Positions 439 to 26,083 of a stretch of DNA of 51,747 nt are shown in pieces. The notes under the pieces are model-generated. The model made no database searches. It worked only from the letters and a program-made list of their open reading frames with translations, and was not told the origin of the DNA. This DNA comes from Blastocatellia bacterium (GTDB taxonomy: Bacteria > Acidobacteriota > Blastocatellia > UBA7656 > JADIYM01), in assembly GCA_021463145.1 (NCBI GenBank), contig JAJTWZ010000029.1, forward strand, positions 1 to 51,747. The letters run 5' to 3'. Both the position numbers and the translations under genes were made by a program. Numbering within the stretch: the first letter of the stretch is position 1; the number at the start of each line of letters is the position of its first letter.

Positions 439-505
439 TTTCGCGCCTGTTCGCTTCTTCGACTCGCCGTAGAACAGCACCATTCGAGTGCTGGAGGCCC
501 GCTCC

Positions 506-3388: not shown

Positions 3389-4591
3389 ATGGCCCGAATC
3401 GATTCTCTCTTCAATGAAATGCAGGAACGGGGCGCGTCGGATCTGCACATCGTCGTAGGCCGGCCGCCGATGCTGCGGATGCGTGGCGATCTGGTCGAGA
3501 CGGCTCACGAGCGTGTGACTGCATCGTCGGCCGACGCTCTCATCCGCGAGATATTGACGCCCGCGCAACAGGAGCAGATCGAGGAGCACCTGGACCTCGA
3601 CTTCGCGTACGAACTGCCCGGTCAGGCGAGGTTTCGCGCGAACATCCTCCACCAGCATCGGGGGCTCGGCGCAGTTTTCCGGATCATTCCTACGGACATT
3701 CTGACGCTCGAGCAACTGGGAATGCCGCCGTCGGTCCGGCGACTTGCCGAGATGCCTGCGGGCCTGGTGCTCGTCACGGGGCCGACTGGATCGGGAAAGT
3801 CGACGACCCTTGCCGGCATGATCGACCACATCAACGAGACGCGCGCCGCGCACATCCTCACGATCGAAGATCCTCTCGAGTTCATCCACCAGCCGAAGAA
3901 GTGCCTGATCACACAGCGCGAGGTCGGCGCGCACACCGAGAACTTCGCGAGCGCGCTTCGAGTTGCGGGCAGGCAGGATCCTGACATCATCCTGGTGGGC
4001 GAGATGCGCGATCTGGAGACAATTTCGCTGGCATTGACATCGGCGGCGTGCGGCCTGCTCGTGTTCGGAACGCTCCACACGAACAGCGCTATCAAGACGG
4101 TCGATCGAATCATCGATGCATACCCGCCCGAGGAGCAGAATCAGGTCCGTGCGATGCTCGCCGACTCGTTGAGCGGCGTCGTTGCGCAGCAACTGGTGAA
4201 GACGACCGACGGCAAGCGCTGTGCGGCTGTCGAGATTCTGATCGGTGGGCGCGCACTGGGTAACATCATTCGTGAGGGCAAGACGTCGATGATTCCTTCC
4301 TACATGCAGTCGGGCACGGGCGAAGGAATGCAGACGATGGATCAGGCGCTCATGGCGCTCGTGCAGTCCGGCCGCATCACGGCGGAGGACGCGGCCGTAA
4401 AAGCGACGGACAAGACAGCATTCGAGCGCATGGCGGCCGGCGGGCCGGCGCCGCCGGGCGGAATCCCCCCGATCGGCGGCGTACAACCCGGAGGAATGCC
4501 TCGGCAAGGTCCCCCGCCCGGAGCCGTCCCGCGCCCGCACGGCACTGGCGGCTTCCCGCCGCCGCAGCGGCCGCCCACGGGTCGAAGGTAG
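3389..4591 (+). CDS. PilT-family type IV pilus retraction ATPase
   Basis: The protein has 400 residues and a stand-alone PilT layout: N-terminal subdomain (SDLHIVVGRPP), Walker A GPTGSGKST (131-139), Asp box IEDPLEF, Walker B DIILVGEMRD and GNIIREGKT near the C-terminus. In the His box the usual ETGHLVFGTLHT reads AACGLLVFGTLHT, so the first His is Leu223 and the second, His230, is kept. Arg-Glu of the usual LREDPD is GRQDPD. The last 50 residues are a Pro/Gly-rich tail (PPGG, GGIPPIGG) absent from classical PilT. GTGAGG lies about 10 nt before ATG 3389. It sits directly after the WD40-PilT fusion, and the two are clear paralogues. Which of the two is the main retraction motor cannot be told from sequence. 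Confidence 0.92.
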   Translation: MARIDSLFNEMQERGASDLHIVVGRPPMLRMRGDLVETAHERVTASSADALIREILTPAQQEQIEEHLDLDFAYELPGQARFRANILHQHRGLGAVFRIIPTDILTLEQLGMPPSVRRLAEMPAGLVLVTGPTGSGKSTTLAGMIDHINETRAAHILTIEDPLEFIHQPKKCLITQREVGAHTENFASALRVAGRQDPDIILVGEMRDLETISLALTSAACGLLVFGTLHTNSAIKTVDRIIDAYPPEEQNQVRAMLADSLSGVVAQQLVKTTDGKRCAAVEILIGGRALGNIIREGKTSMIPSYMQSGTGEGMQTMDQALMALVQSGRITAEDAAVKATDKTAFERMAAGGPAPPGGIPPIGGVQPGGMPRQGPPPGAVPRPHGTGGFPPPQRPPTGRR

Positions 4592-9344: not shown

Positions 9345-10463
9345 TCATAACCGCATCGGCATGATGACGTACTTGTAGTCGTAGTCGTCGCTTTTGGATG
9401 GGCGCATCTGGGCCTGGCTCTGCCCATCCTTGAATTCGAAGGCGATCTGCCCTTCACCAGCGACGTTGAGAAAATCGGTCAAATATTGAGCGTTGAAGCC
9501 AATCTGCACGTCCGATCCGTCATAGTCCGTTACGAGCATCTCGCGAGCTTCGCCGACTTCCGAAGACTGCGACATGATCTCGAGCCGCTCCATTCCGAAG
9601 TTCAACTTGATGGCACGTGAACGTTCGTCAGCCATCAACGCGGCGCGACGGATCGCTCCGTGCATTTCGGAGCCTTCCATTCGAACCGAATTCGGCGTTT
9701 CTTTTGGCATCACGAGTTCATAGTTCGGAAACTGACCTGAGAGCATCCTCGAGACGAGCACGCGGCCCCCAATGCGGAAGAAGATGTGGTTCTCGTCGCG
9801 AGCAAACTCGACGACATCGTCAACTTCTGTTGTCAACCGCAGCAATTCCGCCAGAGTCTTTCTCGGGATGAGCACCTTGACTTCATCGCCGTCAATTGGC
9901 GCACCGGTATCCAATCCCGAGCGTTCCACGAACGCCAGCCGATGGCCATCCGTCGCCACCATCCTCGCCGATTCGCCTTCGAGGCGAAAGAAGGCACCGT
10001 TCAACGTATAGCGCGACTCCTCCTGCGTGATCGCGAAAATCGTGCGGTTGATGAGCGTCTTGAGTACTTCGGACGGGATTCGAAACTGGGAAACTGTCCA
10101 GGAAGGAACGACGGGAAAGTGCTCCTTTCCCTGACCTACGACCTTGAACTTCGATCGCGCACAATCGATGACGATCCATTCGTTCGAATCCTGAGTCAAT
10201 CGGATTGGCGCTTCAGGCAGATTACGCACGATGTCGAAGAGTTTGCGAGCGCTGACTACCATCGATCCTTCGGTCTTGACGGAAGCCGGCGCACCGGTTC
10301 GAAGACTGACGTCGAGGTCAGTGCCCAGAATTGCGATTCGACCAGTGCCGTCCGACTCGATTAGCAAATTCGAAAGGATCGGAATCGTATTCTTCTTCTC
10401 GACGACCCCCTGAACGAGATTCAACTCCTTCAAAAGTTCGTTCTTCTCGATCGTGAACTCCAT
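9345..10463 (-). CDS. dnaN: DNA polymerase III beta subunit (sliding clamp)
   Basis: The protein has 372 residues, the normal clamp length. The start is at MEFTIEKNELLKELNLVQG; upstream in-frame codons are spacer DNA. All three clamp domains are present, ending in YVIMPMRL, the typical C-terminus that lines the partner-binding pocket. The clamp encircles DNA and tethers the replicative polymerase. It lies downstream of dnaA on the same strand, the conserved origin order, with 456 bp of DnaA-box-bearing DNA between them. Confidence 0.97.
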   Translation of the reverse strand: MEFTIEKNELLKELNLVQGVVEKKNTIPILSNLLIESDGTGRIAILGTDLDVSLRTGAPASVKTEGSMVVSARKLFDIVRNLPEAPIRLTQDSNEWIVIDCARSKFKVVGQGKEHFPVVPSWTVSQFRIPSEVLKTLINRTIFAITQEESRYTLNGAFFRLEGESARMVATDGHRLAFVERSGLDTGAPIDGDEVKVLIPRKTLAELLRLTTEVDDVVEFARDENHIFFRIGGRVLVSRMLSGQFPNYELVMPKETPNSVRMEGSEMHGAIRRAALMADERSRAIKLNFGMERLEIMSQSSEVGEAREMLVTDYDGSDVQIGFNAQYLTDFLNVAGEGQIAFEFKDGQSQAQMRPSKSDDYDYKYVIMPMRL

Positions 10464-10919
10464 TTGTGGACAACCTCTGGTTTCGAGATTCAACCGCCGA
10501 CTACCTGCGGGCCGCGATGATACACCGACGAATCCAGCTTGCCTACCGATGCTTTCGAAGTCACAGGACGTCAAAGCGCGCCAAGTTCTGCCTCTACAGG
10601 ATTCCTGAATCGAAGCAGTGGTCGGTGTGTCGGCAATAGGGGTTGATGCCGAACCGGTTCTGGCGCTTTTCACTGCTGGTTTTCAAGAGAGAAGACATGG
10701 ATTAAGAACCAGTAGAAGAGATAGGTGCTGTGGGAAAGTTGACCGTCCGCAGTAAGTCATTCATATCAAATACTTTGGATACGATCTTAACCTGTGGAAA
10801 ACCCTGTTGGAATCGACATCTTCTGTAACGACCTTTGTGGAAATCCTGGCAACGCCGGTCGATTTCCACACGATTCACACCCAATCCACAGCCAGTGATT
10901 GTTGAAAACATTCATAAGT
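10464..10919. other. dnaA-dnaN spacer with DnaA-box-like 9-mers
   Basis: No gene. Near-consensus DnaA boxes (TTATCCACA family) are at 10465-10473 (TGTGGACAA), 10793-10801 (TGTGGAAAA), 10836-10844 (TGTGGAAAT), 10862-10870 (ATTTCCACA) and 10882-10890 (CAATCCACA). In many bacteria a second origin sub-region lies in this spacer, or DnaA represses dnaN there. The dnaN promoter should lie here, but I could not fix it. Confidence 0.55.
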
Positions 10920-12401
10920 CTATTTAAGACTTGCAATTAGGCTGTTGATAAGCCTGTGGAAATCTGATTCCCTTTCGTAGAGATCAGTGATCTTGTTTAC
11001 CGAGTGAATGACGGTTGTGTGGTGCTTTCCACCGAATTCACGGCCAATTTCCGGAAGGCTCGCCTTTGTCATGTGCTTACAGAGGTACATTGCGACCTGG
11101 CGAGGAACGGCGACCGAACGCGCGTTGTTCTTGCTTTTCAAGTCGGCTACACGCAGGCCGTAATGATCGGCCACGGCGCGTTGGATGACTTCGATCGTGA
11201 TCGTCTTGTCGTCGTCCTCCATGAAGTTCTTGAGAACCTCCTGAGCCAGATCCATGTCCAGGTCACGGCCGTTCAGCGACGCGTATGCGACCAGGCGCAC
11301 GAGGGAACCCTCGAGTTCACGGATGTTCGATTTGATCTTGGAAGCAATGAACAGGGCGACGTTGTCAGGGAGTTTGATCCGCTCAATTTCGGCTTTGCGC
11401 TTGAGAATGGCGACCTTTGTCTCGAGATCAGGGGGTTGGATGTCGGCGATGAGACCCCACTCGAACCGCGAATGCAGTCGCTCTTCAAGTGTCGGGATCT
11501 CTCGTGGCGGACAGTCCGAACTGATCACGATCTGTTTCTGCGCGTCGTAAAGCGCATTGAACGTATGGAAGAACTCCTCTTGCGTGCGTTCTTTTCCAGC
11601 GAGGAATTGAACGTCGTCCATCAGCAGGATGTCGATTGAGCGGTACTTCTCGCGGAAACTCAGCGTCTTGTCGTAGCGGATCGCGTTGATCAGTTCGTTC
11701 ATGAACTTCTCCGACGAGATGTAACTGAGTTTGAGATGACGGTTGCGACTCTTGATCGCGTGTCCTATCGCATGCATGAGGTGCGTCTTTCCGAGGCCCA
11801 CTCCACCATAAATAAACAATGGGTTGTAGGTCTTGGCCGGTGCTTCGGCGACCGCCAGGCTTGCGGCGTGAGCGAATTGGTTGCAGGAACCGACTACGAA
11901 CGTATCGAACGAATACTTGGTATTGAGCGACAATTCGGCGGGTTCCAGGTCAATCAGTTTGATGGACGGCAATGGTCCGCTCGGCCGCTCCGTCAACGGA
12001 TCCCCGGTTCGCGCGGCCGAGGTCTGCTGAGTGGATACAGCCGCGGATCCCGTCGAATGCGCCACAGTTTGCGCGGTTCCGGCTTCAAGCGGTACCGCCG
12101 GCGAGTACGAGGCCGGTGTTGCACTGCCGTTTCCTGAACCAACCACAGGAGTGCCATCGTCGATCTGAAATGAGATCGAATAGTCCTTGAGGTCAAGTTC
12201 CTCGAGAGACTCCTCCAGGACGTCGGCGTAGTTCGTAGAGATCCAGTGACGGTACGTTTCGTTTGGCACCTGGACCACTAACGTCCTCTCGTCGTCGCGC
12301 GTGAGTGATACCGGCCCGAACCACGTCGCGAAACTGAGTGGATTCACGCGACGCTCGACAGCGTGCAGGATCGATGAGAACAACTGGCTGCTTTCCGTCA
12401 T
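10920..12401 (-). CDS. dnaA: Chromosomal replication initiator DnaA
   Basis: The protein has 493 residues. Domain I ([10 protein letters not shown]) binds helicase or regulators. A Pro/Ala/Ser/Thr-rich domain II linker spans about residues 90-145. Domain III is AAA+, with [10 protein letters not shown], Walker [11 protein letters not shown], Walker B LLMDDVQF and the sensor and Arg-finger region [12 protein letters not shown]. Domain IV carries the DnaA signature ([16 protein letters not shown]) that reads DnaA boxes. Boxes lie on both sides of the gene, and one TGTGGAAAT lies in its 3' end. ATG 12401 is preceded by a weak AGAG. Autoregulation through upstream boxes is likely. Confidence 0.97.
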
Positions 12402-13324
12402 CTCTTATGAGTTCTCTATTCGTTTGTTCTTGATTGGGAGCGGCTCAACTGACCGATTGTCGCAGTCGTTAAGGTAGAGTCTTCACTGTCACCCACTAGA
12501 CAACTCTTCATAAGCAGCGTCGAAGTACTTGCGAAATCTGCCCGTACAGTGTTTTTCCACAGGAAATTCACATATACGAAAACACCCCGACATATACTAC
12601 CTAAACCGTGTCTGCTGAGTGGTTTACCTTGTTGAAAAAGAACCGCGACGACCGGACCGTAGCACAGGAAAACCGCTCTCACAAGCGAAAAACTGAAGGG
12701 CTTTGTGGAAAAAGATAATGCCTGGTTTTTGGGGGCAATTGGAGTGGCAATCAGTCGGCGACACCGCGTGATTTCGGGTTCGATCTGACGGGAGTTGGTC
12801 CGGTGCGGTCGACCCGGGACCGGCAACTCTGAAGCAATCGAGCAACAGGGCGGTGCGCGGTAGCGGTCGCCTACGCCAGCGATACAAGTCGCCGATCTGA
12901 CTGGAGGTCCCGCTCGCTGCGAGGCGTGTGGGAAGGTATAGGGCGAAGAGACATGCGGGACTAAAGCGTCGAAATGGGCCTGAGACACGGATTTCCACAC
13001 GGAATTCGGGCCTTACCAACGTTTTTTCCACAGAAACTGTGGAAAAAACTGGGGAAAAGTGGAAAAGTCGCGCAGATTCGATGGGTTTTCGGTGAGGTCA
13101 GGCCGGGGCGTCGCCGTGTGGGCTCAGATACCTCGAGTGCACGGATTAGAGTTGAAGGTAGAATCCTTATCCAGGCTTTCGGAGGTGAAACGACGATCAT
13201 AGTTTTTCGTCGGTGCCGGCCCACCATCGAGACGTTCTAAATCAAACGAGGCGATTCTGGAAAGCACGGTCCGCCGGCGAGCGAAACTTCTTCGCAATCA
13301 TGATGTTGGCCGTCCGCACATGAC
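12402..13324. other. Probable oriC region between dnaA and rpmH
   Basis: About 0.9 kb with no credible gene. DnaA-box-like 9-mers occur at 12553-12561 (TTTTCCACA), 12704-12712 (TGTGGAAAA), 12991-12999 (ATTTCCACA), 13024-13032 (TTTTCCACA) and 13038-13046 (TGTGGAAAA), followed by GTGGAAAAGT near 13060. An A/T-richer patch with CATATAC and CATATACTAC lies at 12570-12600. Position between divergent dnaA and rpmH is the commonest bacterial oriC location. Exact unwinding element and GC-skew switch were not computed. Confidence 0.65.
13022..13048. repeat. Perfect 12-bp inverted repeat made of two DnaA boxes
   Basis: TTTTTTCCACAG and CTGTGGAAAAAA (13022-13033 and 13037-13048) are separated by 3 nt. 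Head-to-head boxes suggest cooperative DnaA binding. The hairpin could alternatively stop transcription toward dnaA. Confidence 0.75.
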
Positions 13325-13353
13325 TTGACGAGTGAGCTTCCGGCGGGTATGGT
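13325..13353 (+). promoter_or_regulatory. Promoter of the rpmH-rnpA operon
   Basis: TTGACG (13325-13330), 17-nt spacer, TATGGT (13348-13353). The start of transcription would fall near 13360, about 35 nt before rpmH. Confidence 0.65.
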
Positions 13354-13395
13354 CCCTCGTTTGCGACTCTATTCACGTAGCGAGGCGACATAGCA

Positions 13396-13539
13396 ATGAA
13401 GCGCACTTTTCAACCGAACAACCGTCGACGGGCCAAGACGCACGGCTTCAGGCTCCGAATGAGCACGAAGGCCGGTCGCCTTGTGCTCAAGCGCCGCCGC
13501 GACAAGGGCCGGAAGCGTCTGACACCGGCGCACTACTAG
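13396..13539 (+). CDS. rpmH: 50S ribosomal protein L34
   Basis: The protein has 47 residues, a short basic protein starting [18 protein letters not shown] and ending KRLTPAHY. It matches L34 along its whole length (TFQP-N-RR, HGFR-RM-T, GR-VL--RR-KGRK). It is part of the large ribosomal subunit and the first gene of the origin-proximal operon. The gene is too short for usual ORF cut-offs and is hidden inside a longer open frame that belongs to rnpA. GAGGCG lies about 10 nt before ATG. Confidence 0.97.
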
Positions 13540-13553
13540 ACATCGGCACGGGC

Positions 13554-13925
13554 GTGGACGGATCGCGGCCGATCGAGCCGCCGGACGAACGGTTTCCAAA
13601 GTCCGGGAGGATTCTCAAGCGCCCACACTTTCGGCTGATCTACGCTTCCGGCCGGAAGATTCATACGCCGTTGTTTACTGCGTTCTACGTAGAGTCATAC
13701 CGGCCGGGACTTCGAATCGGCCTTACGGTCACTCGCAAGGTCGGTTCGTCGGTTGAACGCAATAGGTGCCGAAGGCTTTTGCGAGAGGCTTTTCGCCGAA
13801 ACAAGGCTCTCGGTCTCGGACTTGGAGTGGACCTCGTGATCAACGCGAAGCGCGATCTGGTTGCAGCGCCGTATGCCGGGGTCGAGGCAGAAGTGAAGCG
13901 CTTGCTCGCAAGGATTCGGTCGTGA
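13554..13925 (+). CDS. rnpA: Ribonuclease P protein component
   Basis: The protein has 123 residues from GTG 13554, 14 nt after the rpmH stop. Conserved parts are [14 protein letters not shown] at the N-terminus and the RNR-type motif [15 protein letters not shown], with a basic helix that binds the 5' leader and P RNA. It matures tRNA 5' ends with the RNA subunit. The same frame stays open upstream through all of rpmH to 13332, but has no start codon between there and 13554. The stop overlaps the yidD start by 4 nt (GTGA). Confidence 0.92.
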
Positions 13926-14131
13926 GAGGTCTCGCTAGTGGCGTGATCCGCGTCTACCAGCGCTGGGTATCGCCGATATTACCCAAGGCTTGCCGTTTCG
14001 AGCCGACGTGCTCGGAATACACACGGCAGGCGATCGTTCGCTACGGCGTCGCGCGCGGCGCCTTTCTCGGTTTCTGCCGGTTGATGAAATGCCATCCATT
14101 TCATCCGGGTGGTTACGATCCGGTTCGATAA
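13922..14131 (+). CDS. yidD: Membrane protein insertion efficiency factor YidD
   Basis: The protein has 69 residues. It starts at GTG 13922 overlapping the rnpA stop. It carries the family core [25 protein letters not shown] and the C-terminal [12 protein letters not shown], with the conserved cysteines. Family members assist YidC-dependent membrane insertion. Here it sits between rnpA and yidC, the standard order. Confidence 0.95.
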
Positions 14132-14158
14132 CGTCTAGCAGGACACAAGAAGCAGTTC

Positions 14159-16027
14159 ATGGAAAAGCGACTTCTCGCGGCGATACTTCTCTCGATGGGC
14201 ATCCTCTTCGGCTGGCAGTACTTCATGCGGACTTTCTACCCGCAGAAGCCTCCAGCGCCTCCCGCGACGCAGACGGCCGTGCCGTCTCCGGAGCCTGCGC
14301 CTGTTACTGCCCCAGTTGTATCGACCACGGGTTCGAGCACGGCCCCAGTAGATCCGGCCGCTGCTGCAGGCGTTGCTGCGGTAGCTGAACCGGAACGCAC
14401 CGTAACCGTGCAGACAACGCACTGGACGGCCAGGTTCACCAACCGTGGAGCGGTCCCGGTGTCCTGGGTACTAACTGCCGGTCCGGACGACAAGCCGATT
14501 CAGTCGTCGGACGGCACGGCGCTCGAATTGATACCTGAGGTAGGCGTCCGCGAAGTTGGTGCACCGCTGCGGCTCGGCGTTCCAGGTGACGATGCGGCGA
14601 CCGCGCGGTTCAACTCCTCGACGTATCGCGTCGAGTTGAAAGACGGGAACGGCGCGGTCGTTCAACTCCCGGCCGATGAACCGATCGTCGTAGCGGACGA
14701 CCAGACGATAGAACTTGCGTTCACGCTCGTCGATGCGGCGACGCACCAGACCCTGACGAAGCGATTCACTATCGTCGGCGGCCTGTTCGACCTGGGCCTC
14801 GTCGTCGAGGGGTCACCAGTGCCGCCATCGATGGCGGTCGTCGTGGGGCCACGCATAGGCGACCAGACGATTCGCACGGAAGGCACATATGCCTATTCAC
14901 CTCCCCTCGCTGCGATCGGTGGCGAGGACGGCAAGGCGAAGTACGTGCACGGGGGAGAAGTCGCCAGCGGCGGTAACCACACCGTCGAGTCCGTACCGCA
15001 CTGGGCAGGGATAACCGACAACTACTTCGCAATGGCGGTCGCGGCGACGAACGAATCCCGGTCTCCATCGGTCGTGTCGAACGTGAAGCTCAAATACGAC
15101 GAGAAGGACACGAAGGAACACGACTTCCTCTCGGTTTCGATTCCGGTGTCGAACGGCAAGTTGATGCGCGTGTTCGTGGGGCCAAAGGATCCGCACGTCT
15201 TCGACGCGGTGAACGCCCGCGCCAAGACGGAACTGGGAGCGGCGATCGACCTTTCGGGCTTGATCAACTACGGATGGTTCGGCTTTCTCGTTCGCCCGAT
15301 AATTCCCATCATCGACTGGGCTCTTCAGTTGACGAACCGGCTGACGGGCAATTACGGATGGTCGATTATCGTCGTGACTGCGATCTTCAACCTGTTGTTC
15401 TTCCCCCTCCGATACAAGAGTTCGGTCTCGATGAAGAGGGCGGCGAAGTTGCAGCCGCGCATGAAGGACCTGCAGGAGCGGATGAAGAAGGTGAAGCCGA
15501 CGGATCCGGCTTTCAAAGAGTTGCAGTCGGAGCAGTTCGCTCTGATGAAGGAAGGAAATCCGCTGGGCGGATGCCTGCCGCTGCTTCTGCAGTTCCCGTT
15601 CTTCTGGGCCTTCTTCGTGTACTTCACGACCTCGTTTGTAGTGCGGAAGCAGCCGTGGGTCGGTTGGGTGCACGATCTTACTGCGCCGGACCCTCACTAC
15701 GTTCTGCCGGTTCTAATGTGTGCCGCTCAGATCGGATCGATGCTCGTGATGCCGATGCCAAACTCCGACGATCCAGTGATGAAGATGCAGCGCCGTCTCA
15801 TGACGTGGGTGATGCCGATCGTCTTCACATACTTCTTCTTTGTGGCTGCGCCAAGCGGACTCATGCTCTACTGGATGACGCTGAACCTCGCGGGTATCGG
15901 GATCCAGTTCGCAATCAACAAGATGATGCCGCCCGATCTGAAAGACGTGCCAGTGCCGGTTCCCGCGGCCTCGGGCAAGAAATCGAAGAAGGGCGGTAGC
16001 CGGGAACTTGTAGGAAGCGAGAAGTAG
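14159..16027 (+). CDS. yidC: Membrane protein insertase YidC
   Basis: The protein has 622 residues. The N-terminal membrane anchor (LLAAILLSMGILFGWQYF) is followed by an Ala/Pro/Thr-rich linker and a large periplasmic beta-sandwich up to about residue 360. This long periplasmic domain is the Gram-negative form. The conserved insertase core follows: amphipathic region, NYGWSIIVVTAIFNLLFFPL, MKRAAKLQPRMKDLQ cytoplasmic hairpin, GNPLGGCLPLLLQFPFFWAFF, and two more membrane segments. A basic C-terminal tail (KKSKKGG) may contact ribosomes. It inserts proteins with or without SecYEG. It is 27 nt after yidD and 2 nt before jag. Confidence 0.97.
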   Translation: MEKRLLAAILLSMGILFGWQYFMRTFYPQKPPAPPATQTAVPSPEPAPVTAPVVSTTGSSTAPVDPAAAAGVAAVAEPERTVTVQTTHWTARFTNRGAVPVSWVLTAGPDDKPIQSSDGTALELIPEVGVREVGAPLRLGVPGDDAATARFNSSTYRVELKDGNGAVVQLPADEPIVVADDQTIELAFTLVDAATHQTLTKRFTIVGGLFDLGLVVEGSPVPPSMAVVVGPRIGDQTIRTEGTYAYSPPLAAIGGEDGKAKYVHGGEVASGGNHTVESVPHWAGITDNYFAMAVAATNESRSPSVVSNVKLKYDEKDTKEHDFLSVSIPVSNGKLMRVFVGPKDPHVFDAVNARAKTELGAAIDLSGLINYGWFGFLVRPIIPIIDWALQLTNRLTGNYGWSIIVVTAIFNLLFFPLRYKSSVSMKRAAKLQPRMKDLQERMKKVKPTDPAFKELQSEQFALMKEGNPLGGCLPLLLQFPFFWAFFVYFTTSFVVRKQPWVGWVHDLTAPDPHYVLPVLMCAAQIGSMLVMPMPNSDDPVMKMQRRLMTWVMPIVFTYFFFVAAPSGLMLYWMTLNLAGIGIQFAINKMMPPDLKDVPVPVPAASGKKSKKGGSRELVGSEK

Positions 16028-16029
16028 CA

Positions 16030-16476
16030 ATGAGGGACGAGATTCAGGCGTTCGTCGACAAGATGACTGCGGCGGCAGGCTTCGAGGTCTCAATCGTCGT
16101 CGAAGAGACCGGCGTGGCGGGTGACTATCGCGTCGTACTCTCGGGCACCGATCGCGGAATGTTGCTCAGCCGGGGCGCTGAACTGCTCGACGCACTCGAG
16201 TACGTCACGAATCGCGCATTCGGCAAGCAAATGAAACACGACGGGAAGATTATTTTCGACAGCAACAACTATCGTCGGATGCGGGAGCAGGAGTTGCACC
16301 TCATGGCGCGGAAAGCCGCGGAACGCGTTCGTGAAACGCGTCAGCCATTTGTCTTCGAGGCCATGTCGCCAAGCGAGCGTCGCATCATCCACGTAGCACT
16401 GACAGATGACGCGACCGTCCGCACGGAGTCGATAGGGGACGGTTCCGAGCGCAAGATTCGCGTTGTGAGAGCTTGA
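16030..16476 (+). CDS. jag: Jag/KhpB-like KH-R3H RNA-binding protein
   Basis: The protein has 148 residues. A KH domain (about 20-75, with GTDRGMLLSRGAELLDALEYV) and an R3H domain (about 85-145, RKAAERVRETRQP...MSPSERRIIH) are present, but the N-terminal Jag_N domain of Bacillus and Streptococcus Jag is missing. The arrangement directly after yidC is conserved across bacteria. Gram-positive relatives bind RNA and influence cell elongation. The role here is inferred from neighbourhood only. Confidence 0.9.
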   Translation: MRDEIQAFVDKMTAAAGFEVSIVVEETGVAGDYRVVLSGTDRGMLLSRGAELLDALEYVTNRAFGKQMKHDGKIIFDSNNYRRMREQELHLMARKAAERVRETRQPFVFEAMSPSERRIIHVALTDDATVRTESIGDGSERKIRVVRA

Positions 16477-16522
16477 TCGGTTCTAGGTGTGGGGGATTGT
16501 CCCTTCGCCTGGGCAGCGAGAA

Positions 16523-17899
16523 ATGTTCGAGGACACGATCGTCGCAGTCGCGACGCCTCCCGGACGCGGCGGCATTGCCATCGTTCGAATGAGCGGGCCA
16601 GATGCCCTGCGGATCGCAAACGTATGTCTGGGGGGAGGAGACCGGCTTGCGGCCTCGCCGCGGCGGGCGATCCTCGTCGACGTGTCCGACCCGGCACACG
16701 AATGTCCCGCGATCGATCGTGGCCTGGCCACCTTGTTCCGCGCCCCGGCCTCGTACACCGGGGAAGACGTTGTCGAGATTTCAGTCCACGGTTCGCCGGT
16801 GATAGTGGACACCACACTGCGCGCACTGCTGGCGGCGGGAGCGCGTGTGGCAACTCCGGGAGAGTTCACGCTGCGCGCTTTTCTGAACGGTCGTATCGAC
16901 CTTACGCAGGCCGAGGCCGTTCGAGATATCGTCGAAGCTCAGACTGGCCACCAGGCGCGTCACGCACAGCGGCAGTTGCGGGGAGAGCTGTCGAACCGGC
17001 TTCGGCCGCTCAGGGACAGGCTGCTCGCGGTGATCGTACAACTCGAGTCCACGGTCGAGTTCGTCGAGGATGACATTGCACCTGAGGAACGATCGACTCT
17101 TTCGGCTGAACTCGAGTCGGCCGCCAACGAGTTGTCGGCTCTGACGTCGACGTACGCTGTTGGCCGCCTGATTGCGGACGGACTTGGCGTCACGCTCGCC
17201 GGCCGGCCGAACGCCGGGAAGTCGAGCCTGTTCAACAGACTCGTTCGGTCGGAGCGGGCGATCGTGACGCCGACCCCGGGCACCACGCGCGACCTCGTCA
17301 GCGAATCCATAGAAATTGATGGCGTTCCAATTCGGCTCGTCGACACGGCGGGATTGCGCGAGACGGATGACGAGATAGAGAGGATCGGCGTTGGACGAAC
17401 GCGCAGTTCCATCGCAGACGCCGACGTCGTGATAGTTGTCATAGATGGACAGGCGGATTCCGCGGATACGTTGGGCCCGCTTCTCGATGAAAGTCGTGAC
17501 TCCAGGCGCGTGGTGGTGGTCAACAAGACCGATCTTGGATCGCCAGCGGCGGGTATAGTGGAGCAAATTCGTGCTGCAGGTGTGGATCCGATCCTCGTGT
17601 CAGCTCTTTCGGGTGATGGCCTTGAGGACGTCCGCGGCGCTATTCTGAGCGCTGTCGGCGGTCTGCCGGTCGTGGAAACGGACAGCTTGCTCGTGACGAA
17701 CGCGCGACACCACGAACTACTCCGACGAGCGTCAGCGGCATTGTCGTCGGCGTCGGAAGCGTTGTCGGCCGGGTTTTCCGAGGAGATCGCTCTGGCTGGC
17801 CTTCACGAGGCGCTTCAGACGCTTGGGGAATTGACCGGCGAAACCGTCATCGACGACGTGCTCGGCATGATCTTCTCGACATTCTGCATCGGCAAGTAG
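16523..17899 (+). CDS. mnmE: tRNA-U34 modification GTPase MnmE
   Basis: The protein has 458 residues from ATG 16523; a GTG 36 nt upstream is possible but less typical. The N-terminal formyl-THF-binding domain starts DTIVAVATPPGRGGIAIVR. An inserted Ras-like GTPase domain has GRPNAGKSSLFN, DTAGLRETDDEIERIG and NKTD. The C-terminus is CIGK, the cysteine-containing motif of the family. With MnmG it builds the cmnm5 group on wobble uridine 34 of certain tRNAs. Its partner mnmG is 14 nt downstream, so the pair is co-transcribed. Confidence 0.97.
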   Translation: MFEDTIVAVATPPGRGGIAIVRMSGPDALRIANVCLGGGDRLAASPRRAILVDVSDPAHECPAIDRGLATLFRAPASYTGEDVVEISVHGSPVIVDTTLRALLAAGARVATPGEFTLRAFLNGRIDLTQAEAVRDIVEAQTGHQARHAQRQLRGELSNRLRPLRDRLLAVIVQLESTVEFVEDDIAPEERSTLSAELESAANELSALTSTYAVGRLIADGLGVTLAGRPNAGKSSLFNRLVRSERAIVTPTPGTTRDLVSESIEIDGVPIRLVDTAGLRETDDEIERIGVGRTRSSIADADVVIVVIDGQADSADTLGPLLDESRDSRRVVVVNKTDLGSPAAGIVEQIRAAGVDPILVSALSGDGLEDVRGAILSAVGGLPVVETDSLLVTNARHHELLRRASAALSSASEALSAGFSEEIALAGLHEALQTLGELTGETVIDDVLGMIFSTFCIGK

Positions 17900-17913
17900 G
17901 GAGAGACTGAACT

Positions 17914-19839
17914 ATGGTGAGTGGAATGGGCACCCCGAGTTCAGCGGGCGATCGTCGTTATGACGAGCAATATGACGTGCTCGTGATTGGCGCTGGCCAC
18001 GCAGGTTGCGAGGCTGCGCACGCTGCGGCGCGCCTTGGCGCTAAGACTGCACTCGTTACCATCAATCTGGACCTGATTGGCCAGATGTCGTGCAATCCGG
18101 CAATCGGTGGAGTGGCCAAGGGTCACATGGTTCGCGAGATTGACGCACTCGGCGGGGCGATGGGTGTAATCGCGGACAGAACGGGCATTCAGTTTCGACT
18201 TCTCAACCGAAGCCGGGGGCCAGCTGTGCAGTCCCCGCGATGCCAATCCGATCGGGCTCTTTACCGGACGGAGATGCGATCATTTCTCGAGAAGACGCCG
18301 GATCTTCACCTGCAGCAGGCGGAAGTTGTCGAACTGCTTATCGAGAACGGCCGAATAGTTGGCGTTGAACTCATCGACTCGAGACGGTTCGCAGCGCGGA
18401 CCGTAGTCCTGACGACCGGGACCTTTCTGAATGGCCTGGTTCACATAGGCGATCACACGTATTCAGCCGGGCGATCGGGAGAGGCACCCGCAATCCGGCT
18501 TGCCGCGTCGGTTCGACGGATAGGCTTCAGAATGGGACGGCTCAAGACCGGAACGCCGCCCAGGCTCGACTCTCGCACTATCGACTTCTCCCAGATGGAA
18601 AGGCAATTTGGCGACACGCCGCCGGTGCCCTTCTCGTTCCGTACTACCTCGATCGATCAACCCCAGCTCCATTGCCACATTGCATTTACGAATCAACAAG
18701 TTCACGACTCAATCCGCGGAAATCTGGAGAGGTCGCCCCTGTATTCGGGAAAGATCGAAGGCACTGGCCCCCGGTATTGTCCGTCGATAGAGGACAAAGT
18801 CGTCAAGTTCCCGCATAAGGACAGGCACCAACTGTTTCTAGAGCCCGAGGGTTACGATACTTACGAGACGTATATAAACGGGCTCTCGACGTCGCTGCCG
18901 GTAGACGCACAGCAAGAAATGCTCGTGCGGATCCGGGGACTCGAGAACGTGAAAATGCTGCGACCTGGCTACGCGATCGAGTATGACTTTGTCGATCCTA
19001 CCGAGCTCCGGCATACGCTCGAGACAAAGCGTGTCGCTGGGCTTTTTCACGCGGGCCAGATCAACGGAACGTCTGGTTATGAAGAGGCCGCTGGTCAGGG
19101 GATCGTTGCGGGAATTAACGCCGCTCTCCAGGCGCTGGGCCACGAACCGTGGGTCTTCAATAGGAGCGATGGCTACGTGGGGGTCATGATAGACGACCTG
19201 GTCAGTCGCGGCGCGGACGAGCCATACAGGATGTTTACGTCGCGCTCGGAGTCGAGGCTCTTGTTGCGGATGGACACGGCAGACCGGCGGTTGACGGAGT
19301 CCGGCCGCCAACTCGGACTCGTACAAGACGACCATTGGGATATGTTCAATGCGAAGACGCGCAGGCTGGAGTCGGTCGTTGGAGCCATCGACGGTCTGCG
19401 TGTTGCTATGTCGTCCTCAACCGCGACCAGCCTTGGAGAAGCGGGACTGGATGTTGCATCTACGACAACTGTTGCTGCACTTATGAAGCGGCCGGAGTTC
19501 CACGTGGAGCATTTGCGAATGCTGCTTCCTGCTGCCATTTCTGAAAGTGTTTCCGACGAGGAATTGGGGGTAGTCCTGAGCGACGTCAAGTACTCAGGTT
19601 ATGTTGCCAATCAGGTGGCGGCCTCTGCGAGGGTACAGGCGTCTCGCGCGCGGCGTATTCCGGCAGACTTCGATTTTTCGTCCGTGTCGGGCCTGTCGAC
19701 GGAGCAAATCGAGAAACTTTCTCGCCGTCGGCCGGAAACGCTCTACGAGGCCGAAGGTGTATCAGGGATGACGCCAGCGGCTGTGAACCTATTGTCGGTA
19801 TACCTCGAGCTTGGCAAGCGACGGGCCGCCCGTGTCTGA
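17914..19839 (+). CDS. mnmG: tRNA-U34 carboxymethylaminomethyl transferase MnmG (GidA)
   Basis: The protein has 641 residues, normal length. The FAD-binding motif [12 protein letters not shown] is near residue 25. [23 protein letters not shown] and [21 protein letters not shown] carry the GidA signatures, and the C-terminal helical domain binds MnmE and tRNA. GGGAGAG precedes ATG 17914. A parS-like palindrome with one mismatch lies inside the gene at 19497-19510. It overlaps rsmG. Confidence 0.97.
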
Positions 19840-20452
19840 TTCCGAGTTTCAGGACGCAATCGCGTCGATGGCGCCCGACTTCGGCCTGACGATCGACCCA
19901 GAGGTTCTGGATCGATTCTGTCGGCACTTCGACCTGCTCAGGACGTGGAATCGAAAGCTCAACCTCACACGCGTCTTTGCCCCCGCCGAGGCGGCCCGGT
20001 TTCATTTCCTGGAGTCGGCATTTCTCACGACAGTCGTGCGCGGCACGGATGTGTCGGCGTGCCGGATCGTCGATGTGGGCTCCGGAGCGGGGTTTCCTGG
20101 GATCCCGCTCGCGTGCATGTGGCTCGATTCGGAGTTCGTGCTCGTCGAGCCAAACGAGAAGCGGGCGGTGTTTCTAAAGGAAGCTGTGCGGCGTCTGGAG
20201 TTGACAAGGGTGACGGTAGAAATCCGGCGGTACGACGCCGAGCGGGTCCGGAGCTCGGATTTTCTTGTCAGCCGTGCGCTCGAGGGTCTCGAGCAGTTGT
20301 TGGACCCAATTGTTCGCAGCCCAGCTGAATACATCGCCCTGTTCACGACTTCTGACGTGTTGTCGCGGGCGCGAGGTCTTTCCCGACGTACAGTTACCGA
20401 GGTTGCCATACCGGGAACTTCAAATCGGCGTATTGGCGTGCTGAGGGCCTGA
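19832..20452 (+). CDS. rsmG: 16S rRNA (guanine-N7) methyltransferase RsmG
   Basis: The protein has 206 residues from GTG 19832, overlapping the mnmG stop by 8 nt; a TTG at 19811 is an alternative. The SAM-binding motif is [15 protein letters not shown] with [13 protein letters not shown], and [12 protein letters not shown] follows. It methylates G527 (E. coli numbering) of 16S rRNA. Loss of the enzyme gives low-level streptomycin resistance in other bacteria. The order mnmG-rsmG-parA-parB is the classic gid-par layout. Confidence 0.93.
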
Positions 20453-20478
20453 GCCGCCAGCGCTGAAAAGATGAGGCG

Positions 20479-20494
20479 GGTTCCACGTGGAACG
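20479..20494. promoter_or_regulatory. parS partition site
   Basis: GGTTCCACGTGGAACG contains a perfect 14-bp palindrome and fits the bacterial parS pattern GTTnCACGTGnAAC at every fixed base. It lies 208 bp before parA. ParB nucleates here and spreads, using CTP in studied homologues. Confidence 0.88.
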
Positions 20495-20702
20495 GGCCAG
20501 GGTGTCAGGGTCGGGCGGACCAGGCAAAAAGACACGCAACATCTTTCCCGAATTCTCGATCATGGGGCGCGGGAAGACACGCAGCGCGTTACCCGTGCGG
20601 CGGGAATCCTCTGTCGGAGCGGATCTCCGATGCATGCTGTCACTATTTGAATGGAGTCTGTGGTACGCTTCGCGCTCTTCCGTCGGGCCTCCACTGAATC
20701 GT

Positions 20703-21476
20703 ATGGGACGAGTAATAGCCATCGCCAATCAGAAGGGTGGGGTTGGCAAAACGACGACGGCAATCAACCTTGCCGCCTGTCTCGCCGTTGCCGGTAGCCG
20801 GGTCTTGTTGGTCGATGCAGATCCGCAGGCCAACAGCACGAGCGGACTGGGTCTTCGGGGCCAGCATCAGCGCACGCTCTACCACGCATTGGCGATGAAC
20901 GAGCCTGTTGAAAAGATCGAAATACCCACAGGCCTCGACGGACTCTCTCTCGTTCCGTCCGAGCGTAACCTCGCTGGAGCCGAGATCGAGCTTGTCGAGG
21001 TCGATCGCCGCGAATACCGCTTGCGCGAAGTACTTGAAGCCACTCGCAACCGCTTCGACTTCATACTAATCGACTGTCCCCCTAGTCTGGGACTCTTGAC
21101 GCTAAACGCCCTGACGGCCGCCGATTCGGTCCTCGTTCCGATTCAGTGCGAGTATTTCGCGCTCGAGGGAGTTTCGGAGCTCTGGGACACGCTGATTCGA
21201 ATCCGCCGAAGCCTTAATCCGACACTGGCCGTCGAAGGCTTCCTGTTGACGATGTTCGATGAGCGAACGAATCTATCTAATCAGGTAATGGCGGATCTGC
21301 GAGACTTTCTCGGCAGCCAGGTCTTCGAGACGTCCATACCGAGAAACGTCCGACTTGCAGAAGCGCCGAGCCACGGACAACCCATCATCCTCTACGACCC
21401 TAAGTGCCGCGGATCGGAGAGCTACGTAAACCTCGCAAAGGAGGTCCTCGCCAATGGCAAAAAGAGCGCTCGGTAG
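20703..21476 (+). CDS. parA: Chromosome-partitioning ATPase ParA (Soj)
   Basis: The protein has 257 residues from ATG 20703 (MGRVIAIANQKGGVGKTTT). A longer in-frame reading back to 20487 would cross the parS region and is rejected. The deviant Walker A KGGVGKTT, switch LLVDADPQANSTSGLG and LIDCPPSLGLLTLNAL are intact, and the short N-terminus is the chromosomal Soj type. ATP-dependent ParA dimers coat the nucleoid and move ParB-parS. The end of the gene contains the AAAGGAGGT ribosome site for parB, which overlaps by 23 nt. Confidence 0.96.
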   Translation: MGRVIAIANQKGGVGKTTTAINLAACLAVAGSRVLLVDADPQANSTSGLGLRGQHQRTLYHALAMNEPVEKIEIPTGLDGLSLVPSERNLAGAEIELVEVDRREYRLREVLEATRNRFDFILIDCPPSLGLLTLNALTAADSVLVPIQCEYFALEGVSELWDTLIRIRRSLNPTLAVEGFLLTMFDERTNLSNQVMADLRDFLGSQVFETSIPRNVRLAEAPSHGQPIILYDPKCRGSESYVNLAKEVLANGKKSAR

Positions 21477-22329
21477 AGGGATCAACGCACTCTTTCAGGC
21501 AACCGAAGTGCGAGAGCCCGGTGAGGTCCTAAGCGAGATAGATCTTGACTTGCTCGAGCCAAGCGCCGATCAACCAAGAACAGTCTTTCGCGAGCGCCAA
21601 CTCGACGAACTTGCCGCGTCAATTCGGGCAAATGGAATCGTCCAGCCTTTGCTCGCCAGGCGGCGTGGTGACCGATATCAAATCATCGCAGGCGAACGCC
21701 GGTGGCGGGCAGCGCAGCGCGCTGGATTGACCAAGGTGCCCGTGGTCGTTCGAGATATCCCCGACGAACGGGTCCTGGAACTCTCGCTCATCGAGAACAT
21801 TCAACGCGAAGAGTTGAACCCGATCGAAGAGGCCAATGCCTATCGCCGGCTCATCGAAGGTTTAGGAATTACACAGGAAGAGGTCGCCCAGCGCGTAGGA
21901 CGCGATCGTTCGTCTGTAACCAACTACCTTCGTCTCCTGAAGCTGCCGGAAGAACTACAGCAGTGGGTAGAGGAAGATCGACTGTCGATGGGGCACGCCC
22001 GCGCCATTCTCGGACTGGATAGCCCTGAGGCCCAGCGCAATCTCGCGATCGAGGTCATTGCCAGGCGGCTTTCAGTTCGCGAGACCGAGAGAGCCGTTAA
22101 GCGGCTGCTCGCGGAAACCGTCAAGCGTGTGGGGGGCACGGATTCTACAGCCGGGCGTGCGTCCGCGCTTTCCTCCGATGCCAATCAGCGTGCGGCTGAG
22201 GAGAAACTGAGCCGCCGGCTCGGCACCAAGGTCCGAATCACCCCAATGAAGATCGGCGGAAAGATAGAGATCGTCTTCTACTCGGACGCCGAACTTGACA
22301 ACATCTATTCCCTCATAATGGGAGCCTGA
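21454..22329 (+). CDS. parB: Chromosome-partitioning protein ParB (Spo0J)
   Basis: The protein has 291 residues. It starts MAKRALGRGINALF like other chromosomal ParB proteins; this N-terminal basic segment stimulates ParA. The CTPase/sulfiredoxin-like domain carries GERRWRAAQRAG and ENIQREELNPIEEA. The helix-turn-helix for parS recognition follows (TQEEVAQRVGRDRSSVTNYLRLL), then a linker and a C-terminal dimer domain ending VFYSDAELDNIYSLIMG. A strong Shine-Dalgarno within parA suggests coupled translation. Confidence 0.97.
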   Translation: MAKRALGRGINALFQATEVREPGEVLSEIDLDLLEPSADQPRTVFRERQLDELAASIRANGIVQPLLARRRGDRYQIIAGERRWRAAQRAGLTKVPVVVRDIPDERVLELSLIENIQREELNPIEEANAYRRLIEGLGITQEEVAQRVGRDRSSVTNYLRLLKLPEELQQWVEEDRLSMGHARAILGLDSPEAQRNLAIEVIARRLSVRETERAVKRLLAETVKRVGGTDSTAGRASALSSDANQRAAEEKLSRRLGTKVRITPMKIGGKIEIVFYSDAELDNIYSLIMGA

Positions 22330-22919: not shown

Positions 22920-23969
22920 GTGGTCAAACGTTTGACCGAGATGGTGTCGTGCGCGGGTTGAGCGTCTAAGATCGCGCCCCGCGATCTGGCTCGGGTTCTG
23001 AGCCGCTTACCCAAACAGCCACCAAATCCACGATTGCTCGTCGGGTTCGAGACGGCAGACGATGCCGGCGTGTACCTTGTCAGGGACGATCTAGCCTTGG
23101 TGCAGACGGTCGACTTCTTCACGCCGATCGTTGATAACCCCTTTATTTATGGCCAGATAGCTGCACTTAACTCATTGAACGATGTCTGGGCGATGGGAGG
23201 CGAAGCCATCACGGCGCTCTCGGTAGCCGCATTTCCCCGCAAGGATGTGCCATATGAGATCCTGGAGGAGATATTCGCCGGCGGTCTCGACATACTTGTT
23301 TCCAACGATGTTGCATTACTCGGTGGACACACTGTCGACGATCCCGAGATCAAGTTCGGGTACGCCGTCACCGGGACGATCGATCCCAATCGAATCCTTC
23401 GCAACGGGGGCGCTCGACCTGGAGACGCGGTCGTACTGACCAAGCCTATTGGAACAGGCATTGTCAGCACGGCGATAAAGTTCGCGCGAGCGCCGCAGGA
23501 TGCAGTCGACGCCTCCCTTTCGACGATGCTTCAGTCGGGACGGCGAGCCGGAGAGTTGGCGCTGACCCACGGCGCAACCGGCGCAACGGATGTCACGGGG
23601 TTCGGTCTGGCCGGGCACGCTTTCGAAATGGCCGTTGCGAGTGGCGTGAGGCTGGAGATTGCAGCCTCGAGTGTCCCGTTGCTCCCGTACGCTCTGGAAC
23701 TGGTGCGCCAGAAGAATGTGACGCGCGGAAACGTGACCAATCGGGAGTACGTCCAGGACCATTGCGAGATTCTCGATGGTGTGGACGATGACCTCCAGAA
23801 GGTGCTCTTCGATCCTCAGACAGCAGGAGGCCTGCTGGTCGCAATGCGACCCGATGACGCGAGCGCCTACGTTGAAGCCCTTCGCGCCGAAGGATACATC
23901 GCAGCGGCGGTGATTGGCTCCTGCGCCCAGGCTGAAGAGGAACAAGGTTCGATAGTAATCGCTCCGTGA
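22920..23969 (+). CDS. selD: Selenide, water dikinase SelD, itself a selenoprotein (UGA = Sec14)
   Basis: The protein has 349 residues if the in-frame TGA at 22959-22961 is read as selenocysteine. The frame reads VSCAG-U-ASKIAP, placing Sec at the catalytic position with the essential Lys three residues later, as in the CxxK/UxxK motif of SelD. Downstream, VGFETADDAGVY, VDFFTPIVDNPF, NDVWAMGG and LLGGHTVDDPEIKFG are the ATP and metal-binding parts. GTG 22920 has GGAGG only 4 nt away; TTG 22932 or ATG 22941 are alternatives. A TTG start after the TGA (23034) has no ribosome site and would delete the active site. SelD makes selenophosphate from selenide and ATP for Sec-tRNA and selenouridine. 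Confidence 0.9.
22959..23004 (+). promoter_or_regulatory. Candidate bacterial SECIS element
   Basis: Directly after the UGA a perfect stem GATCGCG-CCC-CGCGATC (22970-22986) forms, with one further A-T pair. A second hairpin GGCTC-GGGTTCT-GAGCC (22988-23004) follows, whose loop resembles the GGUCU loop read by E. coli SelB. Which of the two is used is unknown. Confidence 0.55.
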
Positions 23970-24108
23970 CGACTACCGTCTTGTAACCGGACAGGCTGGA
24001 CTTGCTGGAAACGCGAATCCGTTGCCCGAGGACGACCGTAGAAGGCAACACTCGCGCGATTTACTTGTGTATCCCTGATTAGGGTGCTAATTATTCGGAT
24101 GGGGTATT

Positions 24109-24906
24109 ATGGCGGTTCTGTTCACACATGTCTCCGGCGCGCATAAGGGCCGCGTAGATCGGTTCAATGATGCGGTCGAACGCATTCGAATCGGGCGAGC
24201 CGCCGACTGCGAAGTACGGCTTTCACCTGCTGACACCGTTGTCTCTTCGCACCACGCCGTCGTCAATCTCACGCCACGCGGTTACGTGATCCAGGACCTC
24301 GCGAGCCGGAACGGCACTTTGGTCAACGGACAGGCAATCGAACGAGCACCGGTCTCGGGCAACGATCTCGTTCAACTCGGATTCGGTGGACCTCAAGTCA
24401 GATTCGATGTCGTCGACGAACCGAGCCGGGCGAGGGCCGAAGCAGACTTTTCGATCCTCAGCGCCGTGCTCGAGGCCAGCGACGTAATCTCGAAGTACAT
24501 GGCGAATTATTTGAACGAGTTCGGCCTTACAGCAAGTAAATTCAATACGTTACAGGTATTGCGCGACGAGCCGAAGCGTTCCGTGACCCAGAACGACCTG
24601 AGTACCAGGCTGACCGTCACCGGCGCCAGCATCACCGGCGTGCTCGATCGGCTCGAACGCGACAATCTAGTCGCCCGCGAGTCTCACCCGACAGATCGCC
24701 GCGCCAACCTGGTGCGGCTCACGGACGAAGGCGAACAGCTCGTCCAGAACGCCTCAGATCTTCACGCCATTCGCACCCACGAGCTAATTTCGGCCCTCTC
24801 GGAGAACGAGAAAGCCCTTCTCTGTCAGCTACTCGGAAAGCTCGTCGAAGCAGCCAGAAAAAAATCTTCGGAGCTCGGGCAACCTCGACACTCGATCGGC
24901 GTCTAA
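24109..24906 (+). CDS. FHA domain-MarR family transcriptional regulator fusion
   Basis: The protein has 265 residues. Residues about 20-100 are an FHA domain, a phosphothreonine reader: RIRIGRAADCEVRL, VSSHHAVV, LASRNGTLVNG with the usual Arg, Ser-His and Asn-Gly positions. Residues about 110-250 are a MarR winged helix: TQNDLSTRLTVTGASITGVLDRLERDNLV, then the MarR signature HPTDRRANLVRLTDEGEQ. The gene stands alone and ends in a strong terminator. A kinase-controlled repressor is the natural reading, but its target and kinase are unknown; no Ser/Thr kinase lies in the window. MarR proteins bind small ligands in the same C-terminal fold, so ligand control is possible too. Confidence 0.9.
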   Translation: MAVLFTHVSGAHKGRVDRFNDAVERIRIGRAADCEVRLSPADTVVSSHHAVVNLTPRGYVIQDLASRNGTLVNGQAIERAPVSGNDLVQLGFGGPQVRFDVVDEPSRARAEADFSILSAVLEASDVISKYMANYLNEFGLTASKFNTLQVLRDEPKRSVTQNDLSTRLTVTGASITGVLDRLERDNLVARESHPTDRRANLVRLTDEGEQLVQNASDLHAIRTHELISALSENEKALLCQLLGKLVEAARKKSSELGQPRHSIGV

Positions 24907-24918
24907 GGCCACGAAGAC

Positions 24919-24958
24919 GGTCGGGAACTGATGAGTTCAGTATCCCGACCTTGTTTTT
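24919..24958 (+). terminator. Rho-independent terminator of the FHA-MarR gene
   Basis: Stem GGTCGGGA...TCCCGACC extends inward with ACTGA...TCAGT and is followed by TTGTTTTT. This is the clearest intrinsic terminator in the window. Confidence 0.9.
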
Positions 24959-25267
24959 GACCAGATCGTTAAGTAGTTAATAGTTTGAGAGTTGATTTGT
25001 GATCGACACACCTGAAATTCCCACCCCGCGCTCGACGTCGCAGACGGACGATATGGCGCCGAGCTGAAAGCGGAGATTGCCCTTCGCATCCGTACCCACC
25101 CGAGAAAAGCACCCTCACTTGCCTGGCCTTTCTGGGACCTACTTACCAGAAAGGCCGGGCTCCTGCCTTTTCAGGCTAAGAACTTCGAGACCGTCGGCCG
25201 GAAGCGCCCATCGACGAACTGCCCGCAACTTGACTTCACCGGCGACGGACCGTTCAAATGCGCGCGC
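24959..25267. other. Gene-free spacer with a second strong stem-loop
   Basis: Contains an A/T-rich patch with TTAAGTAGTTAA (24969-24980) and a 15-bp stem (25121-25135 with 25146-25160, one T-G pair) around a 10-nt loop. No T-run touches the stem on the plus strand, and the nearest (TTTT) is about 8 nt downstream. It could be a terminator, a processing site or part of an RNA. No open frame here has a credible start. Confidence 0.5.
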
Positions 25268-26083
25268 ATGCCACTCTCACACGAGCAATCCGTCGCCGTC
25301 GACCTTGCCCGCAAGGCGGGAGCGGTCCTCCTGCAATTCTATAGCGGTGAAACCGGCGTGGAGTGGAAGCACGAGCGCGAACCCGTCACCGCCGCGGATC
25401 GAGCCGCCAACGCGCTGATCGTCGAAGAACTCGCCTCTGTCTTTCCAGACGATGGAATTCTGGCGGAGGAGACGCCGGATTCGACCGGACGACTGCGTCA
25501 CGATCGTCTCTGGGTGATCGATCCGATGGACGGCACAAAGGAGTTCATCAAGAAGAACGGCGAGTTTTCAGTGATGATTGGTCTGGCGATAGATGGTATT
25601 GCGAAGGTGGGCGCCGTCTACCAACCAACCCGCGACAGGCTTTTCTACGGAACCGTTGGGACTGGTGCATTTGTTATCCAGGACGGGACCGAACCTGTCC
25701 ATCTGGAGGTCAGCGATATTACCGACACCTCGGCGATGTCGGTCGCAGTCAGCCGATCACACCGGAGTCCGGAGATCGACGCCGTCCGCTCTGCACTGGG
25801 CATCGAGCGCGAAGTCCGCTCAGGAAGCGTGGGACTGAAGGTCGGCCTCATCTGCGAGCGGCATTGCGACCTTTATATCCACCCGAGCCCGCAAACGAAG
25901 CAGTGGGACTCGTGCGCTCCGGAAGCAATCCTTGCCGCAGCTGGCGGCCGGATGACGGACCTCCGGGGGAATCCCTTCGTCTATAACCGCACCGATCTCT
26001 ACAACCGCCACGGAATTCTCGCTACGAACGGACGCGTGCACGATCGCATTCTCGAACGCGTGGCGGAGGTCTTCCGCGCCTGA
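25268..26083 (+). CDS. cysQ: 3'(2'),5'-bisphosphate nucleotidase CysQ, inositol monophosphatase family
   Basis: The protein has 271 residues. The lithium-sensitive phosphatase motifs are present: AEETPDS (metal Glu), WVIDPMDGTKEFI (DPxDGT) and QWDSCAPEAILAAAGG (WDxxAP). TKEFI after the DGT is typical of CysQ rather than inositol phosphatases. It hydrolyses PAP to AMP, relieving a by-product of sulfate assimilation and of acyl-carrier loading. It stands 39 bp before the winged-helix gene. Some relatives act on other phosphorylated substrates. Confidence 0.9.
   Translation: MPLSHEQSVAVDLARKAGAVLLQFYSGETGVEWKHEREPVTAADRAANALIVEELASVFPDDGILAEETPDSTGRLRHDRLWVIDPMDGTKEFIKKNGEFSVMIGLAIDGIAKVGAVYQPTRDRLFYGTVGTGAFVIQDGTEPVHLEVSDITDTSAMSVAVSRSHRSPEIDAVRSALGIEREVRSGSVGLKVGLICERHCDLYIHPSPQTKQWDSCAPEAILAAAGGRMTDLRGNPFVYNRTDLYNRHGILATNGRVHDRILERVAEVFRA

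Follow-up and report, generated by a model that had tools for sequence, protein, structure and literature searches.

A 265-residue protein in which an N-terminal FHA domain is joined to a MarR-type winged helix was found to be encoded in a stretch of 51,747 nucleotides from a Blastocatellia bacterium (the window, which is one whole contig of a 5.28 Mb draft genome in 173 contigs). The FHA-MarR pairing is the unusual feature, FHA transcription factors and kinase-controlled relatives of MarR being already known. Judged from its sequence, the protein is a putative autoregulated MarR-type regulator whose DNA binding would depend on whether its FHA domain has captured a phosphothreonine protein, a reading in which our confidence is evenly balanced. 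It is favoured because both domains lie far above their Pfam cut-offs in one frame, because the phosphothreonine triad is kept relative to EmbR and in 11 of 11 modules, and because the MarR topology was modelled, with Foldseek matches to DNA-bound MarR proteins and an invariant Asp-Arg-Arg in the wing. It is further favoured because the rare TTAG-N4-CTAA is placed as the SlyA box is before E. coli slyA, because the genome is rich in kinase and FHA matches, and because OhrR-type oxidation sensing is unlikely. The features concerned are as follows.

24109-24906, plus strand: FHA-MarR fusion gene, a single uninterrupted frame of 798 bp with an ATG start, 265 aa
24184-24381, plus strand: FHA domain, residues 26-91, by Pfam
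24418-24873, plus strand: MarR part, from the AlphaFold model, Foldseek and alignment
24079-24090: candidate operator TTAGGGTGCTAA, a SlyA-type palindrome with its centre 24.5 bp before the ATG
24919-24958, plus strand: intrinsic terminator, a hairpin at 24919-24950 followed by TTGTTTTT

The frame, its coordinates and both Pfam domains agree with the preliminary description, made from the DNA letters, which had claimed one chain of 265 residues with FHA and MarR domains. The same description took the gene to stand alone and to terminate cleanly, and both points hold. The gene is separated by 139 bp from selD upstream and by 361 bp from the next gene downstream (start at 25268), which belongs to the inositol-monophosphatase family by Pfam, and it looks monocistronic. 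A strong intrinsic hairpin with TTGTTTTT lies directly 3' of it; the fold of 24905-24965 reaches -28.1 kcal/mol (z -5.0), and 0 of 200 shuffles were equally stable. Another strong hairpin (25121-25160, plus strand, 15-nt arms, 93% complementary) is situated between the terminator and the next gene. That two genes were wrongly joined in assembly, or that the ORF is spurious, is very improbable: the draft state of the genome with its 173 contigs and the failure to find an orthologue among the genomes searched would fit such an artefact, but both domains lie in one uninterrupted frame far from the contig ends, and the gene has its own terminator, its own promoter palindrome and a gene-like codon composition (GC of 0.66, 0.42 and 0.68 at the three codon positions).

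Neighbouring genes were named from their Pfam matches. Upstream of the fusion gene, dnaN and dnaA are followed by yidC, jag, mnmE, mnmG, rsmG, parA, parB, a bactofilin gene and selD; the region 9345-22329 is an origin-type neighbourhood, with dnaN and dnaA on the minus strand and yidC to parB on the plus strand. Upstream of its listed start codon, TTG, the frame of selD (22920-23969, plus strand) continues past an in-frame TGA (22959), whose context is SCAG-U, which we take to be typical of SelD; if the TGA is read as selenocysteine, the SelD N-terminus resembles that of selenoprotein SelD, and the predicted fold of the stretch after this TGA was no better than that of shuffles. Elsewhere in the window, a 950-aa frame (488-3337, plus strand) combines WD40-type repeats with an ATPase domain of type II/IV secretion, and another T2SSE ATPase gene comes after it (3389-4591).

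The FHA domain was matched by Pfam with an E value of 8.7e-15 (55.3 bits against a cut-off of 20.7), and by the FhaB-type FHA model of NCBIfam below its equivalog cut-off; a sequence search of the PDB returned FHA chains over residues 25-91, EmbR included. The phosphothreonine triad Arg30, Ser46 and Asn68 is kept and aligns to residues 312, 326 and 348 of EmbR, which we take to be the phosphate contacts of that protein. Loss of these contact residues had been named beforehand as the finding that would overturn the proposal; on alignment all three are intact. For archaeal ArnA, the excerpt of PMC10470591 names an Arg, a Ser and an Asn as the three conserved residues for phosphothreonine and superposes them on EmbR. 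When 11 FHA modules of the same genome and its class are aligned, Arg30, Ser46, His49, Asn68 and Gly69 are invariant, and residue 67 is Arg here against Thr in the other 10, which counts against FHA-gated autoregulation. The AlphaFold model, one prediction from a 5-row alignment, likewise counts against it, since pLDDT is below 50 over residues 1-121; this part is not usable, and in it the 11-strand beta sandwich expected of an FHA domain and the FHA/MarR junction are structurally uncertain.

The alignment of the FHA domain to that of EmbR, a transcription factor of Mycobacterium tuberculosis, also bears on a different order of events, in which the FHA domain would bind a phosphorylated kinase, the kinase would then phosphorylate the MarR part, and the covalent phosphate would alter DNA affinity. 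The excerpt of PMC4601284 describes this order for EmbR and PknH, with the effect abolished by truncation or mutation of the FHA domain, and describes MgrA and SarA as phosphorylated directly with a change in their DNA binding. According to the same excerpt, however, EmbR is a SARP activator with an OmpR-type DNA-binding domain, a BTA domain and a C-terminal FHA domain, an arrangement that differs from the N-terminal FHA domain and MarR output found here. The FHA-MarR protein has no SARP or BTA match in Pfam and does not belong with EmbR, and we regard EmbR-like docking as rather unlikely.

For the MarR part, the Pfam MarR_2 model matches residues 138-199 with an E value of 5.8e-13 (49.2 bits against a cut-off of 27), and the MarR model reaches 42.5 bits against 24.6. 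HpaR- and BilQ-type MarR models of NCBIfam match as well, all below their equivalog cut-offs, and the best matches of a PDB sequence search were MarR proteins over residues 110-247. The AlphaFold model has pLDDT of 73-93 in a block over residues 131-220 and shows a MarR topology, with helices at 142-153, 161-168 and 172-184, wing strands at 188-192 and 200-204 carrying Asp196-Arg197-Arg198, and predicted dimerisation helices on both sides of the winged helix, at 104-136 (first half of low confidence), 206-229 and 232-255. Foldseek matched the model to the MarR-operator complexes of MftR, PecS, MepR, MarR and SlyA (E from 1.1e-9), and the Asp-Arg-Arg of the wing is invariant when 9 MarR sequences, that of E. 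coli SlyA among them, are aligned. In the model, whose confidence is low before residue 122, the single helix 104-136 would connect the FHA domain directly with the dimerisation helix of the MarR part, so that a partner bound by the FHA domain would lie at the interface between the two subunits. Redox-sensing MarR proteins of the OhrR type are defined by a reactive cysteine in the N-terminal helix. The only cysteines of the whole protein are Cys34 in the FHA domain and Cys239 in the last helix; oxidation sensing of the OhrR type is thus unlikely, because the N-terminal helix of the MarR part has none.

In common with the SlyA/RovA branch, the protein has the MarR fold and the wing Asp-Arg-Arg, and a TTAG-N4-CTAA box precedes the start codon of its gene by 22-25 bp. 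SlyA, at 144 aa, lacks an FHA domain and is 29% identical to the FHA-MarR protein over 114 residues (E. coli sequence). The SlyA equivalog model of NCBIfam gives 42.0 bits against a cut-off of 120; the FHA-MarR protein may act on DNA as SlyA does, yet it is not classed as SlyA.

The candidate operator was examined against the published SlyA motif. The excerpt of PMC5797941 gives the SlyA consensus as TTAN6TAA and reports a SlyA box 22 bp upstream of slyA in E. coli; TTAGGGTGCTAA fits this consensus and, with reference to that excerpt, matches TTAGCAAGCTAA at 9 of its 12 positions. The slyA box was also seen at this distance in the sequence of E. coli MG1655, and when the two promoters are aligned on the box, 23 of 40 bases are common, among them GCTAATTAT, followed after two other bases by GGA. 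The window contains one TTAG-N4-CTAA, where 0.02 would be expected, and the 5.28 Mb genome has it at only 2 places, compared with 54 for the reversed pattern; the extended palindrome (24076-24093) has its own promoter as its only match without mismatch in the genome. Among 20,000 shuffles of the 139-bp intergenic region, TTAG-N4-CTAA appeared in 27, TTA-N6-TAA in 701 and the extended palindrome in 0, figures that are post hoc because the site was picked after the upstream region had been read, the motif itself being published (excerpt of PMC5797941). Both the 701 shuffles and this choice of site weigh against FHA-gated autoregulation.

A look for target promoters with matching palindromes had been proposed in the preliminary description; a candidate palindrome was found in the gene's own promoter, but no close copy was found at further promoters of the genome. 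With up to 2 mismatches, the extended motif occurs at 5 places in the genome against 15 for the reversed-pattern control, so there is no enrichment, and the sole site with 1 mismatch lies inside a membrane-protein-like coding frame; a regulon beyond the FHA-MarR gene is accordingly unsupported. TTAG-N4-CTAA is also absent from the MarR-only loci retrieved from the class, and this absence and the want of further copies again speak against the autoregulatory reading. The other genomic TTAG-N4-CTAA (locus L041, 1501-1512) lies about 214 bp before a gene whose small product is predicted to be secreted and has a tail rich in Arg and Asp; the case is too weak for this site to be claimed as part of a regulon.

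At the genome level, Pkinase matches were found at 73 places (72 above cut-off, some in the same frame), FHA matches at 31 places (31 of 31 above cut-off) and MarR_2 matches at 11 places (7 above cut-off). A look for a Ser/Thr kinase had also been proposed in the preliminary description; the genome is rich in kinase matches, but the contig that carries the fusion gene has none. A linked kinase was rejected, with 0 of the 73 Pkinase places on this contig and none by Pfam among the 30 other window frames (of 43 listed), a result that is unfavourable to FHA-gated autoregulation.

The FHA modules most similar to this one, in the genome and the class, have the same N-terminal pattern as far as a Gly-x-x-Gly-Pro motif at about residue 95. 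In 8 such FHA proteins, the remaining part was a trypsin-like protease in 6, a bacterial PH-domain match in 1 and nothing else in 1. In the own genome this module is attached to a trypsin-like protease at locus L003, and at locus L002 to a protein of membrane type that has a PH-domain match; fusions to trypsin-like proteases recur in the class, where the module is carried by loci L011, L014, L017, L018 and L022. Shuffling of the FHA module onto a MarR gene would be the simplest history. This distribution also fits an ordinary ligand-gated MarR repressor whose FHA domain merely tethers it to a phosphoprotein complex with no gating, since a module that also occurs with a protease or with a membrane segment may serve generally as an anchor, and the MarR part matches many MarR structures, some of them ligand-bound. 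However, Pfam analysis of the window frames revealed no catabolic or efflux operon adjoining the gene and no neighbour pointing to a ligand, and we consider such tethering unlikely.

A second chain with both domains was sought widely, and one-domain matches only were obtained among 58 relatives, in 162 genomes of the class (best 16 candidates per genome scored) and in 396 genomes of the phylum (best 6 candidates per genome scored); these sets overlap, and the nearest relatives listed are of the same order. A pattern-based scan of genome contigs, other phyla included, returned 2 MarR-only loci and no fusion. Among plasmids, 6 of 355 matching records cover at least 80% of the query; the two examined are plain MarR genes in which the alignment ran into upstream DNA, and 3 of the 4 remaining records come from the same species as one of these two. 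None of 6 matching phage records covers 80% of the query. A literature search of open-licence papers found no report of an FHA-MarR protein, co-mentions of the two terms being unrelated. No orthologue was thus available among the genomes searched for a comparison of conservation, which counts against the FHA-gated reading.

The preliminary description had called phosphorylation control of a MarR protein rare. The FHA-MarR pairing is itself unusual, but the wider statement has to be qualified, as kinase-controlled MgrA and SarA and the FHA regulators EmbR and FHA-LuxR have been described. MgrA and SarA of Staphylococcus aureus are MarR-type proteins under Ser/Thr kinase control (excerpt of PMC4601284); unlike the present protein, they are phosphorylated directly and have no phosphothreonine-reading domain. 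FHA-LuxR of Nocardia and Rhodococcus joins an FHA domain to a DNA-binding regulator, as here, with LuxR and not MarR output (excerpt of PMC3466318), and the FHA enhancer-binding proteins of Myxococcus do so with sigma-54 output. ArnA of Sulfolobales combines an FHA domain with a small N-terminal domain and represses genes with a phosphorylated partner, but it is archaeal, has a zinc ribbon in place of MarR and has ArnB as its partner (excerpt of PMC10470591).

Taken as an FHA-gated autoregulator, the protein would work in three steps. The MarR dimer would bind its own promoter at TTAGGGTGCTAA and limit its own expression. A Ser/Thr kinase, or a kinase substrate, would become phosphorylated on threonine and the phosphothreonine would be captured by the FHA domain, which immediately precedes the N-terminal of the MarR part's dimerisation helices. 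The bound partner might then pull on or block the dimer and change the spacing of the two DNA-binding heads, whereby the operator would be released or, less likely, tightened. In this way phosphorylation would gate DNA binding, and the evidence suggests a regulator listening to protein kinases instead of small molecules. In its fullest form, which we put forward tentatively and would hold a little short of even, the proposal describes a lineage-born MarR repressor that would read phosphothreonine through an FHA domain at the dimerisation helix, with a module shuffled from protease fusions, self-regulation through a SlyA-type box and a kinase-to-promoter switch without a response regulator.

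To our knowledge, few direct kinase-to-promoter routes are known in bacteria rich in Ser/Thr kinases. A compact phosphothreonine reader, a MarR head and a predicted operator together would make up a kinase-to-promoter route that is testable in vitro. Such a route would extend MarR signalling past small ligands, oxidation and direct phosphorylation.
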